From: Longimicrobiales bacterium | GTDB taxonomy: Bacteria; Gemmatimonadota; Gemmatimonadetes; Longimicrobiales; Gaopeijiaceae | DNA length: 64,000 nucleotides | Reading direction: 5' to 3' | NCBI GenBank assembly: GCA_028278645.1 | Contig: JANQDZ010000004.1 | Coordinates: 51,353 to 115,352 of the forward strand | Part shown: piece by piece, positions 24,291 to 28,743 of the stretch | Numbering within the stretch: the first letter of the stretch is position 1 | Layout: every line of letters starts with the position of its first letter | Made by a program: the position numbers and the translations under genes | The notes under the pieces: model-generated | Database searches by the model: none | Seen by the model: the letters and a program-made list of their open reading frames with translations, nothing else | What the model was told of the DNA's origin: nothing

Positions 24291-25224
24291 TAGGAGCCTG
24301 ATCGGAAACGGGGGTGTGGCCGGGCCCCCGGCGTGCAATCTCGGCGATCCTTCTGAAGTACTCCCCTCCGCCAATCCAGAACACATCGTTGTGGCCGGCG
24401 CCCGGAACCAGAAACCACTCTTTGGGATCTTTCCCGGCTTCGTAGATCTCTCGCCCCATGGACAGGGGCACCAACTGGTCCTCAGAGCCGTGGATTACCA
24501 GAAGGGGAGCCTTGGCGTCTCGGACCCACCGACGCGTGGCAAACGCCTCCTCCAAACGGACCAGCAAAAAGCGAGGGAGGAACGGGTAGACGGACTTCCC
24601 CATCTCCGCCAACGAGGTAAATGCCGACTCAAGGACGAGGGCCCCAGGTGTCCGGTTCGCTGCTAGGCGGGCAGCCACCGCACCACCCATGGACCGACCA
24701 AGGACGGTGATCCGGTTCGGATCGGCGACTCTCTCCAGAAGAAAGTCCCATCCGGCCAGGGCGTCCAGATGAAGTCCCTCTTCGGACGGTCTTCCTTTGC
24801 TTCCCCCGTATCCCCTGTACTCCAAAAGCAAAACCGATACACCCTCGGAAAGCAGGCCTTCCGCCAATGGAGTTCGACCGGCGATATCCCCAGCGTTTCC
24901 GTGGAGGAGGAGAACGGCCGGCCCCACGGCCGGCGACTCGACGGTGGACTCGGCGGGATACCACCAGGCTTTGATTTCCACCCCGTCCTGGGTGGTGAGG
25001 GTATGGTCCTCTCCCTGAACACCCTGCAGAAGGGGTGGAGGACCCGGGTCCCCTCGGGAGGGTTGGAACAAGAGGTGTTCTGCCAAGGATGGGGACAGAA
25101 CCATGACGGTGACTCCCAGGACAAGGAGGAGGAGAAAGGTACGTAATAGGCTGCGGAGGAGGGTTTTCTCGAGGAATGGGGTCCGAGGGAGGGGCGCGCT
25201 CGGCCCTTCAGCTGGACCCGTCAC
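24262..25224 (-). CDS. Membrane-anchored alpha/beta hydrolase
   Basis: A 320-aa alpha/beta hydrolase with one N-terminal membrane helix (about 25-45), similar to the ABHD13/BEM46/YfhR group. It has the oxyanion region LLLHGNAGD (106-113) and a complete triad: Ser178 in GRSMGG, Asp249 in HGSEDQ and His278 in GAGHND. It is probably a periplasm-facing or membrane esterase or thioesterase of unknown substrate. Its 5' end overlaps the end of the gene at 25208 by 17 bp, so the two are probably co-expressed. Confidence 0.85.
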   Translation of the reverse strand: MTGPAEGPSAPLPRTPFLEKTLLRSLLRTFLLLLVLGVTVMVLSPSLAEHLLFQPSRGDPGPPPLLQGVQGEDHTLTTQDGVEIKAWWYPAESTVESPAVGPAVLLLHGNAGDIAGRTPLAEGLLSEGVSVLLLEYRGYGGSKGRPSEEGLHLDALAGWDFLLERVADPNRITVLGRSMGGAVAARLAANRTPGALVLESAFTSLAEMGKSVYPFLPRFLLVRLEEAFATRRWVRDAKAPLLVIHGSEDQLVPLSMGREIYEAGKDPKEWFLVPGAGHNDVFWIGGGEYFRRIAEIARRGPGHTPVSDQAPKKDGPAPRT

Positions 25225-25567
25225 CTTCGGAATCCGGAAGATCCGATTCCCACAGCCCCATGAGGTGCTCTTCGAAGCGGCTGGGATCCGTCCGATACTC
25301 CTGGACCCAACTCTCGAAGGAGGGAAGAGCCAGCTTCCGAGACACCCGACCCGTGGCCAGGTCGACGATCTGGTCGTAACTCAGGTCCCCCTGGACACCT
25401 GCCTCCCGGGCCGCGTCCTGAGCCAGGACGAACATCTCGTCCGGGCTCAGGAGCAGAAGGATATCTGCCACCTGAGCGGAACAGTAGTCCAGGTATTTGG
25501 CCCGAAGGACCGCTTCGGACTCCGCACCAATTCCCTTGGGCGGCGGGGGCCCGCCCTCAGCAAACAC
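25208..25567 (-). CDS. Small protein of the local paralogous family (domain A only)
   Basis: A 119-aa protein without a recognised family. Its core (about 23-90) aligns by eye with parts of the proteins encoded at 26302 and 28066: Y-x2-Y...Q...L...P near the start, then LPSFESWVQEY matching LPPFEVWAEDF and LPPQEVWARD. I call this helical unit domain A. The C-terminus is acidic (ESDLPDSEGD). It may start with a GTG or ATG at 25567. It is translationally close to the alpha/beta hydrolase; function unknown. Confidence 0.6.
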   Translation of the reverse strand: MFAEGGPPPPKGIGAESEAVLRAKYLDYCSAQVADILLLLSPDEMFVLAQDAAREAGVQGDLSYDQIVDLATGRVSRKLALPSFESWVQEYRTDPSRFEEHLMGLWESDLPDSEGDGSS

Positions 25568-25642
25568 GGTTTGGCCTCCTTACAAAGGGAGAAACCGACG
25601 TCATACGTTTATGTCGGGCCGTTGAAGCGTCAAGTTTTGTGT

Positions 25643-25676
25643 GAAAAAAAGAACGCAGCTCCTGACTCGGAGCTGC
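25643..25676 (-). terminator. Intrinsic terminator of the ribbon-helix-helix gene
   Basis: On the minus strand an 8-bp stem (GCAGCTCC/GGAGCTGC, 6-nt loop) is followed by GTTC and seven Ts. It directly follows the small regulator gene at 25713. Confidence 0.8.
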
Positions 25677-25712
25677 ATTGGAATTCCAGCCTCGTTTTCC
25701 GATGAGGCGGAC

Positions 25713-26904: not shown

Positions 26905-26918
26905 GGAATCCGGTGGCC

Positions 26919-27842
26919 TCAGTGGACGAAGGCTCCACCCAAGTTGGGTGGGCCCGAGAGTGGCTGGGTCTGTTCTCTGGGTTCCCGAAGGTGGAGCCGG
27001 GCCAGAGTCTCTCTAGCCCCGAAGGTCTCCATTACCTCCTGGAGGGCTCGGTACCGATGGGGCTCGAAGCGAGCCAAAAGATGGGCCAATCCCTCCCGGG
27101 TCTCCTTCACCTGGGCCCTGGCTTCGGCAAAGCTCAGAGGAAGTGGGAACCGGACTTGATAGGAGATCCCCTCCGCTCCCTCCGACGGGACCACGCGCCT
27201 CAGATCCCGGGAAGGGAACGCACCCCTGAGGGCATCCTCCAGGATCTCGTCCGGCTCTCTGAAAGCCGTTCCAAACACGAGAGCGTTCGCGTCGAAGTCG
27301 AGACGGGCTCGTGCCAGCCGGCCTCGCCCCATGGCGATCCGAACCGATGTCCCTTCGTGGAGATCGAGATCTCTGCAGATGTCGCGGAAACCTATCCGGA
27401 GAAGGATGGGCCGAGAGAGGGGGCCATACCCGGCTCTGAGAAGAACCCTCATGGCCAGGTCGAAGCAGTACGGTGCCAAGGCCCGGCGAGCCTGTCTTCC
27501 TTGGGCCGACGGATCCGCCGCAGCCCTCAGGAGCTGGTGCACATGTTTGAGGGTGGGCTCATAGACCCAATCCAACACCACCAACTCGGTGCTGAGGTCC
27601 AACTGCTTGACCCGGGCGCTTCCCAAGTCCAGAACCTGAGAGGCCGACGCGAAGCTCCCGTCCAGCACCAAGGCCAGGCCGATATCTTCGATGCGGCCCT
27701 CGGGAAGGTCGGCCTCGTGAACGCCACGATACTGGACCACGGCTCGAGTCAGGGGAACTTCGCACACGCCCGGAACATCGGCCATGGCCTCGGGCCGAGA
27801 CGCCGGTTGGGGCGTAGCAAGATCTGGGGACAGCTCCGTCAT
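26919..27842 (-). CDS. Unrecognised 307-aa protein
   Basis: A 307-aa soluble protein, conserved-looking in codon use but without a family I recognise. It has an N-terminal beta-rich part (about 25-95) and a helical middle containing YEPTLKHVHQLLRAA. A basic region (GRGRLARARLDF) precedes TAFREPDEILEDAL, which loosely echoes the RTADIFRE..EI motif of its neighbours. It is the first gene of a two-gene unit with the A-B protein and is divergent from the B-A gene at 28066. Confidence 0.55.
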   Translation of the reverse strand: MTELSPDLATPQPASRPEAMADVPGVCEVPLTRAVVQYRGVHEADLPEGRIEDIGLALVLDGSFASASQVLDLGSARVKQLDLSTELVVLDWVYEPTLKHVHQLLRAAADPSAQGRQARRALAPYCFDLAMRVLLRAGYGPLSRPILLRIGFRDICRDLDLHEGTSVRIAMGRGRLARARLDFDANALVFGTAFREPDEILEDALRGAFPSRDLRRVVPSEGAEGISYQVRFPLPLSFAEARAQVKETREGLAHLLARFEPHRYRALQEVMETFGARETLARLHLREPREQTQPLSGPPNLGGAFVH

Positions 27843-28065
27843 GTAGAACCACCCTCTGTTTTAATCCCCGTTAGGAAAGGCAGGGATTTGAACGATAACC
27901 ATTTGTTTACCGCCATCGCAAGAACGACGTTTTCCACTGATCACACGGGCCTAAACACTCCACGGGGGCGCTTGCCACCCATGGGACGTCCGGGCATCTT
28001 TCGGTTCCTTCGGCACTTACAACCGAAGGAATTGGCCTCGCTCAACCGCTTGGAGCCCCACACTT

Positions 28066-28743
28066 TTGGACCGAACCCGTCGGCTCTCCGTCGCCTTTCT
28101 CGACCGTGAAGGGGAAACCTGGGCGTGCTTCCTGGTGACAGCCCTGGGTCCGGACCGTCGTTGGTACGGGTACTTCTCCTTTCGGCCCAAGGACGGTGCA
28201 ACTTTAGAAGACGAGGTCCGAACCGCAGACATTTTTCGCGAGACCTCCGAGGCGGAAATCCATCGAAAAGCCCGTGGCCTTGGGCGCCCTCTACTGTCGG
28301 GCCTCCTTTCGTCGGCCCTTCATACGAGGGAAGCCGAAAGAGAGGGCTCGCCCCCCCTGAGGCGCTGGTTCCGGACGATGTTGTCCGAGAATTCCCTTGG
28401 TTTGGCAGGGGATTGGCCGGAGGGTCAAAACGGAGGGAAGGTCGACTTCGACCTGGGGAAACTCAGATCCCTCTACGCGTCCTATCGCCTCGATCAGGTG
28501 TGCCATCTCATCGCCCTGGTCCACCCGGACGATTTCGACTCGGCCGTGAACGAGATCCTGGACGGGAAGGTGATTGACTTCGGATCGAGGGATATTCTGC
28601 AGTTCGCCATGATGGTCGTAGAGTTCATCGACCACCACCTCCCCCTTCCTCCGTTCGAGGTTTGGGCAGAGGACTTTTTGCGGAACCAAGGAGCCTACGC
28701 CCTTTACACTCACACCCTTCACCGGGAGGGGCGGTTGCCCTGA
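28066..28743 (+). CDS. Two-domain (B-A) protein of the local paralogous family
   Basis: A 225-aa protein in which unit B comes first (about 5-85: RRWYGYFSF, VRTADIFRETSEAEIHRK) and unit A second (about 135-215: YASYRLDQV, LPLPPFEVWAEDF). This is the reverse of the order at 26302. No ATG is available; the best start is the TTG at 28066 with GGAG 10 bp upstream, and the frame is open back to 27955. An overlapping +1-frame ATG at 27981 also reads a protein-like stretch, so a frameshift at the 5' end is possible. It precedes rpsU by 53 bp. Confidence 0.6.
   Translation: MDRTRRLSVAFLDREGETWACFLVTALGPDRRWYGYFSFRPKDGATLEDEVRTADIFRETSEAEIHRKARGLGRPLLSGLLSSALHTREAEREGSPPLRRWFRTMLSENSLGLAGDWPEGQNGGKVDFDLGKLRSLYASYRLDQVCHLIALVHPDDFDSAVNEILDGKVIDFGSRDILQFAMMVVEFIDHHLPLPPFEVWAEDFLRNQGAYALYTHTLHREGRLP

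Follow-up and report, generated by a model that had tools for sequence, protein, structure and literature searches.

A conserved chromosomal gene cluster of Gemmatimonadota with two undescribed domains and a palindrome also found at type IV pilin genes

A cluster of five genes, here named A, R, AB, U and BA, was analysed in a stretch of 64,000 nucleotides from a Longimicrobiales bacterium (assembly GCA_028278645.1, contig JANQDZ010000004.1, positions 51,353 to 115,352), referred to below as the window; the host genome comprises 4.9 Mb in 103 contigs. Three of the proteins carry a unit A and two of these also a unit B, R is a predicted ribbon-helix-helix (RHH) regulator, and a 25-bp palindrome stands upstream of R (Table 1). 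The palindrome also precedes type IV pilin genes, and R-A is thereby tied by sequence to the pilin circuit, whichever protein reads the element. The cluster is proposed to be a conserved chromosomal module of Gemmatimonadota, likely a pilus-linked regulator in which R would bind DNA and the A/B proteins would be its partners; we consider this proposal about evenly balanced. An earlier sequence-only reading of this DNA had taken the cluster as the mark of an undescribed system, which is supported if a regulatory module not yet described is meant, but not for a defence or mobile system.

Palindrome at the R and pilin promoters

The occurrence of the palindrome upstream of R was analysed. The window copy, with a matrix score of 31.9, is the sole match in the window at 3 mismatches, and 100 shuffles gave none. 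Among 67 upstream regions of R, the best match had at most 4 mismatches in 31 (mean best of the shuffles, 9.2), and 58 scored 13 or more on a site matrix; the matrix was trained on the R regions with at most 6 mismatches (51 of 67), and the R scores are in-sample while the pilin scores are not. The promoter upstream of R is of the type TTGCG/TTGAC-N17-TAnnnT, with a 17-base spacer in 55 of 66 regions when 16-19 bases were allowed and in 54 of 58 under a score giving a point to 17. The promoter-distance count kept 58 of the 67 regions, and in 52 of these the palindrome centre lies 50-54 bases from the -35 element. The R-A promoter was also examined for a sigma-54-type sequence, which was not found; it appears to be of sigma-70 type. 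At 3 mismatches the palindrome was present in 15 of 34 relatives (control 0). At 2 mismatches or fewer, the search of 121 genomes of the family gave 42 places in 38 genomes (reversed pattern 0). Of these places, 24 adjoin R, 2 precede pilins (G005, G333), 9 belong to a dispersed repeat and 7 lie elsewhere. The sister family f2 has the palindrome between divergent BA and R genes (L062, L065, L066, L073).

The palindrome was found before tandem type IV pilin genes in G005, G001 and G333. A degenerate pattern gave 27 candidate places in the window's own genome, and when all of these were ranked by the matrix, the R site came first, followed by the pilin site (28.9) and then by a place scoring 22.8. 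The matrix was built without pilin sites, and this ranking is the independent part of the own-genome result. Besides its two pilins, the pilin locus of this genome has genes for a histidine kinase, PilM, a secretin-like protein and two response regulators of the Sigma54_activat/HTH_8 type.

The upstream regions of pilin genes were then scored across genomes, using the best-listed locus of each search (60 fetched, 59 usable). A score of 10 or more was reached by 14 of 29 regions of relatives; shuffles reached it in 0.6% of cases, and none of the 29 downstream controls did. Genomes without R were defined as those with no R match at E 1e-3 (n = 26; G172 has R and stands outside them), and among 30 upstream regions of their pilin genes, 14 had a palindrome scoring at least 12. 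The pooled regions reached 12 in 26 of 59. As several pilins may occur in one locus, the two pilin scorings could take different copies (-9.9 and 16.6 for L346). A GG-N10-GC motif with its GC 38-50 nt from the palindrome centre, that is, a sigma-54-type promoter downstream of a candidate activator site, was present in 24 of the 26 palindrome-bearing regions among the 59 examined, against 8% in shuffled tails. Judged from these sequences, the palindrome is a putative element of pilin control that occurs throughout the sampled part of the class.

The protein that reads the palindrome was considered next. R is probably not its obligatory reader, because the palindrome stands at pilin genes also in genomes without R. 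Since the reader must be present whether or not a genome has R, the natural candidate is the sigma-54 response regulator whose gene lies by the pilins, and a PilR-type activator appears the likelier reader. The other explanation is that R itself reads the palindrome as an AmrZ-like RHH protein, controlling its own operon and the pilin directly with A as co-factor. It agrees with the palindrome upstream of R in most R-bearing genomes, with the typical binding of RHH proteins to direct or inverted repeats as tetramers (excerpts of PMC7156744) and with the regulation of Pseudomonas type IV pili by the RHH protein AmrZ (excerpts of PMC3325190 and PMC3946381). The sites in the R-less genomes, most of them with a sigma-54-type promoter, oppose it, as does the palindrome beside the A-methyltransferase gene described below in 5 of 7 such loci, and direct reading by R is considered rather unlikely. 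The palindrome as the operator of R itself was thus dropped as the leading explanation, on account of its presence at pilin genes in R-less genomes with sigma-54-type promoters.

Further palindrome sites were noted. The dispersed repeat belongs to the genus g26 (L311, L313-L320, read by eye), where TTTTCTTGA-like and GTTTCCAGTCAAATAAA-like sequences flank the palindrome; this repeat could be mobile or have a regulatory role. Palindromes at L327:3522, L329:3476 and L271:3704 lie near a parS-like CACGTGAAAC in two loci and by parA-like/mnmG-like genes in the third. A 2-mismatch palindrome before a TolC-like gene (L267:3492) is a possible further member of the regulon. Of the 19 non-R stretches fetched from the 3-mismatch search, three (L270, L277, L284) show a tRNA gene that ends 5-10 bp before the site, and these sites are probably terminators.

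Seven loci from f4, f5 and f6 genomes without R encode a protein of about 280-300 residues in which unit A is N-terminal to a methyltransferase-like part (L212:9524-10366, L213, L214, L215, L216, L217 and L218). Four of these proteins were tested against Pfam; one matched at 3e-6, two weakly (0.007 and 0.04) and one not at all. In five of the seven loci a palindrome scoring at least 17 lies about 50-130 bp after this gene (L212:10465, L213:10639, L215:10390, L216:8876, L217:9130), before a tiny conserved open reading frame (ORF) with a motif like EPIGIIIS...PRFSAYVWGPVP. A sigma-54-like promoter was seen by eye in three of these five.

Proposed circuit and points weighed against it

In the preferred reading as a pilus-linked regulator module, an activator common to the class would read the palindrome and co-express R-A with the pili; most probably this is the sigma-54 response regulator encoded next to the pilin genes. 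R would repress or activate target promoters as an RHH oligomer. A is proposed to bind R because it is the constant neighbour of R, and B is proposed to bind A because it is the neighbour or fusion partner of A. AB and BA would be adaptors linking A to B, modulating R or carrying A elsewhere, and U would be an accessory protein encoded with AB, perhaps chaperone-like. A wider form of the proposal, which we hold tentatively and at somewhat below an even chance, is that R, its dedicated partner domain A and the domain B are a phylum-specific toolkit, formerly separate genes of a single operon, with fusions in both orders yielding adaptor proteins, and that it is wired by a 25-bp enhancer into a pilus feedback controller of an undescribed kind; this enhancer would be class-wide and would serve pilin promoters of sigma-54 type as well as the sigma-70-type promoter of R-A.

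Several results weigh against this circuit. The R promoter appears to be of sigma-70 type and the pilin promoters of sigma-54 type, and one common activator for both is not self-evident. Nine of the 67 R regions have no site of 13 or more and 33 of the 59 pilin regions none of 12 or more. No site of 13 or more was found at the AB-U and BA promoters of the window's family, by which only R-A is tied to the pilin. The palindrome also occurs near the TolC-like gene, the parS-like sequences and in the dispersed repeat of one genus. The degenerate pattern was written with both own-genome sites in view, and their perfect fit is partly by construction. Regarding the proteins, the RHH assignment of R is drawn from a sequence pattern and a weak Arc match, a search of solved structures with the R profile gave no RHH chain up to E 10, and the confidence of the AlphaFold model of BA is low, with a mean predicted local distance difference test score (pLDDT) of 69 and a predicted template modelling score (pTM) of 0.47.

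Units A and B

The homology of the two units was analysed by phmmer, profile-profile comparison and BLASTP. Together they confirmed unit A in three genes and unit B in two, in the orders A, A-B and B-A described by the sequence-only reading, and the ORFs lie where it had placed them. In pairwise phmmer comparison of the five window proteins, AB and BA matched at 1.4e-10 across two stretches, A and BA at 1e-5 to 4e-5, and A and AB at 2e-3 to 3e-3. The comparison of profile hidden Markov models, set beforehand as a check of the units, gave for unit A significant similarity among all three copies, with E values of 9e-12 (BA-A), 3.5e-16 (BA-AB) and 2e-13 (A-AB) for profiles made from relatives. 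The two window copies of unit B matched by BLASTP at 2.6e-6. With a B profile built from loci L062-L101 and the window only, four separate B genes that had been held out were recovered (E 9e-8 to 2e-6), and a reversed ORF set gave no match.

The two domains had been called unnamed, and this was borne out, no described family being found. Neither Pfam (up to E 1) nor PADLOC matched any of the five window proteins, and NCBIfam and PHROGs yielded weak matches only, such as that of R to a PHROG excisionase (E 0.011). To our knowledge the partner domains A and B have no known counterpart.

Origin of the domain orders

The history of the orders was analysed with a tree of 90 A domains, which has few columns and in which the branches separating the A and A-B groups were flagged by the program as long. 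The tree revealed three old groups, namely A alone (98/95), B-A (97/92) and A-B (100/98), the last including one split copy, L094. Because the three A copies are separate old clades common across genera, the reordering of A and B is, by this tree, older than the genera. A local burst of duplication, as first supposed, does not agree with these three old clades and the fixed gene order.

Among 80 loci, an A-B ORF was counted 33 times, a B-A ORF 49 times and an ORF with A and without B 75 times; of the last, 67 have R in the locus, 7 are the A-methyltransferase proteins and 1 is a fragment at a contig end. In f7, a separate B gene follows or overlaps A in four of five loci (L222, L223, L225 and L226, not L221). 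Because A and B are separate neighbouring genes there, the data suggest that A-B and B-A arose by two fusions of partner genes, which would explain the orders better than the circular reordering proposed earlier. The fusion of A and B elsewhere and their separate genes after R in f7 also suggest that the two are partners. Separate genes together with fusions in both orders would make this a clean natural case of domain partnership.

R and U proteins

The alignment of R revealed a strand ending in a conserved proline and followed by two helices, and R is predicted to be an RHH regulator from this pattern. An Arc-like Pfam model matched it weakly, in 2 of 34 members with a best E of 0.008. A leader of about 109 nt lies 3' of the predicted R-A promoter of the window. 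In most genomes the R leader is about 110 nt long, and the window copy (25920-26035, minus strand) folds into a putative long stem.

The 307-residue protein U, which the sequence-only reading had placed in the cluster, is indeed present there but has no unit in common with the A/B proteins, nor with R. Its structure model has a mean pLDDT of 85 and a pTM of 0.80. The order of strands and helices in its second half is that of secretion chaperones, and a type III secretion chaperone-like fold would be its nearest likeness by the model, the fold comparison being weak. Val-His or Ile-His ends 28 of 29 aligned U proteins (window 26919-26927 at the C-terminus of U).

Distribution and gene order

The distribution of the cluster was analysed in relatives, genome contigs and protein databases. 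BA was matched in 38 of 59 relatives, two of them (G004 and G010) by weak A-only matches, and U in 30 of 59. The BA profile search of genome contigs gave at least 76 distinct loci. Among the matches listed, their titles are Gemmatimonadetes, Gemmatimonadota, Gemmatimonadales, Gemmatimonas or Longimicrobiales with the exception of L111, a 5.3-kb contig labelled Gammaproteobacteria with a BA 61% identical to that of the window, possibly a binning or labelling error. Protein searches gave 1063 relatives of BA, 2098 of A and 1111 of U. Among the best 120 of each, every organism name given is Gemmatimonadota, Gemmatimonadetes or Longimicrobiales; the entries are mostly 'hypothetical protein' or unnamed, with two odd product labels among the relatives of U.

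Over 80 loci, those of the genes that occur keep the order SSB(+) / A(-) R(-) / AB(-) U(-) / BA(+) S21(+) or the mirror image of it. A follows R in 66 of 67 R genes, which answers the earlier call for a co-occurrence check with the small regulator. For the 307-residue protein the same check was answered in part: U is encoded on the strand of AB in all 33 loci with both, and in the genomes searched U is confined to the window's family and one further genome. U and BA are divergent in all 40 loci with both. The sister family f2 has BA and R-A; AB is missing from its fetched stretches, and U occurs in 1 of 12 genomes. The f7 and f9 stretches keep R-A, with no BA, no U and no SSB-like or S21 neighbour, and the f4 genome G172 has R-A. 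The cluster is probably inherited vertically.

Two other explanations bear on this distribution. A small RHH-like gene before another small gene is the arrangement of many type II toxin-antitoxin pairs, and R stands directly before the second small gene A; R-A could accordingly be a pair of the toxin-antitoxin or defence kind, and AB and BA would then be antitoxins or effectors derived from it, to which the earlier hint of an undescribed system would also fit. We regard this as very improbable. It conflicts with the missing PADLOC match, with the absence of a relative of A from the viral contigs scanned, and with the kept order beside SSB and S21 and clade-wise inheritance. Across 298 genomes of the phylum, R was found in 101, with one match each, which also stands against it; A was found in 145. 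The combination of a known-family match with a patchy mobile distribution, looked for as the sign of type II toxin-antitoxin or phage defence, was not observed.

The second explanation, that the cluster serves translation or chromosome maintenance in keeping with its S21 and SSB neighbours and that the palindrome is incidental, is judged improbable. In its favour, 30 of the 39 loci that have both genes show S21 within 200 bp 3' of BA, SSB is convergent with A in 49 of 50, and some palindromes lie near parS-like sequences. In the remaining 9 of the 39 loci, however, S21 is not within 200 bp of BA, R-A persists without either neighbour in f7 and f9, and the two best palindrome sites of the window's own genome are those of R and the pilin.

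Comparison with known systems

The pilus-linked regulator module was compared with systems of similar parts. AmrZ/AlgZ, the Pseudomonas RHH protein that regulates motility and type IV pili, resembles it in that a predicted RHH protein is tied to type IV pili, and AmrZ has a protein adaptor, SadB (excerpt of PMC13104612). It differs in that R has 68 residues, that no solved RHH chain was matched up to E 10 and that the palindrome stands at pilins without R. R also has about the size of CdbA of the Myxococcus RHH proteins CdbA/CdbB (67 and 86 residues), a proline at residue 14, after the strand, and a predicted fold of the same kind; no such chain was matched by the R profile up to E 10, and excerpts of PMC7156744 report no homologues of CdbA/CdbB outside Myxococcales. 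PilS-PilR at sigma-54 pilin promoters shares the histidine kinase and sigma-54 response regulator by the pilins, the GG-N10-GC and an upstream site; in contrast, the element found here is palindromic over 25 bp, lies about 43 nt from the GC and recurs in another operon, R-A, whose promoter is of sigma-70 type by its sequence.

Gemmatimonadota are widespread in soils and sediments with few cultures (excerpt of PMC10581226). In a literature search whose results were examined in part, no paper was found on the cluster or on pilin control in this phylum; two papers on the phylum mention type IV pili once each (PMC10581226, PMC7844134). RHH regulators of pili are already known, and what appears new here is a regulator module with domains not yet described. 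If the proposal is true, it provides a predicted pilus control circuit for Gemmatimonadota and names a cis element usable to find its regulon, and the 'hypothetical protein' families of BA, A and U become testable parts.

Features of the cluster in the window

The coordinates of the genes and elements are summarized in Table 1. The flanking gene listed first is presumably SSB, a name assigned from reading its sequence.

Table 1. Genes and sequence elements of the cluster and its flanks, in window coordinates
Feature	Position	Strand	Basis
SSB-like flanking gene, convergent with A; conserved neighbour outside the module	23742..24194	+	
A: unit A alone, 119 aa	25208..25567	-	ORF, homology, family alignment
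R: 68-aa predicted ribbon-helix-helix regulator, gene preceding A	25713..25919	-	ORF, alignment
Predicted sigma-70-type R-A promoter	26035..26063	-	TTGCGT 26063-26058, 17-base spacer, TAATTT 26040-26035; read from sequence
25-bp palindrome, consensus TAAGTCGTTG-N5-CAACGACTTA	26103..26127	.	upstream of R promoter
Hairpin and T-run, terminator-like, 3' of AB	26244..26265	-	read from sequence
AB: unit A then unit B, 200 aa	26302..26904	-	ORF, homology
U: 307-aa protein, strand common with AB	26919..27842	-	ORF, alignment, structure model
BA: unit B then unit A, 225 aa, divergent from U	28066..28743	+	ORF, homology, model
Ribosomal protein S21 gene after BA; conserved flanking neighbour	28797..29000	+	Pfam PF01165, E 6.5e-22

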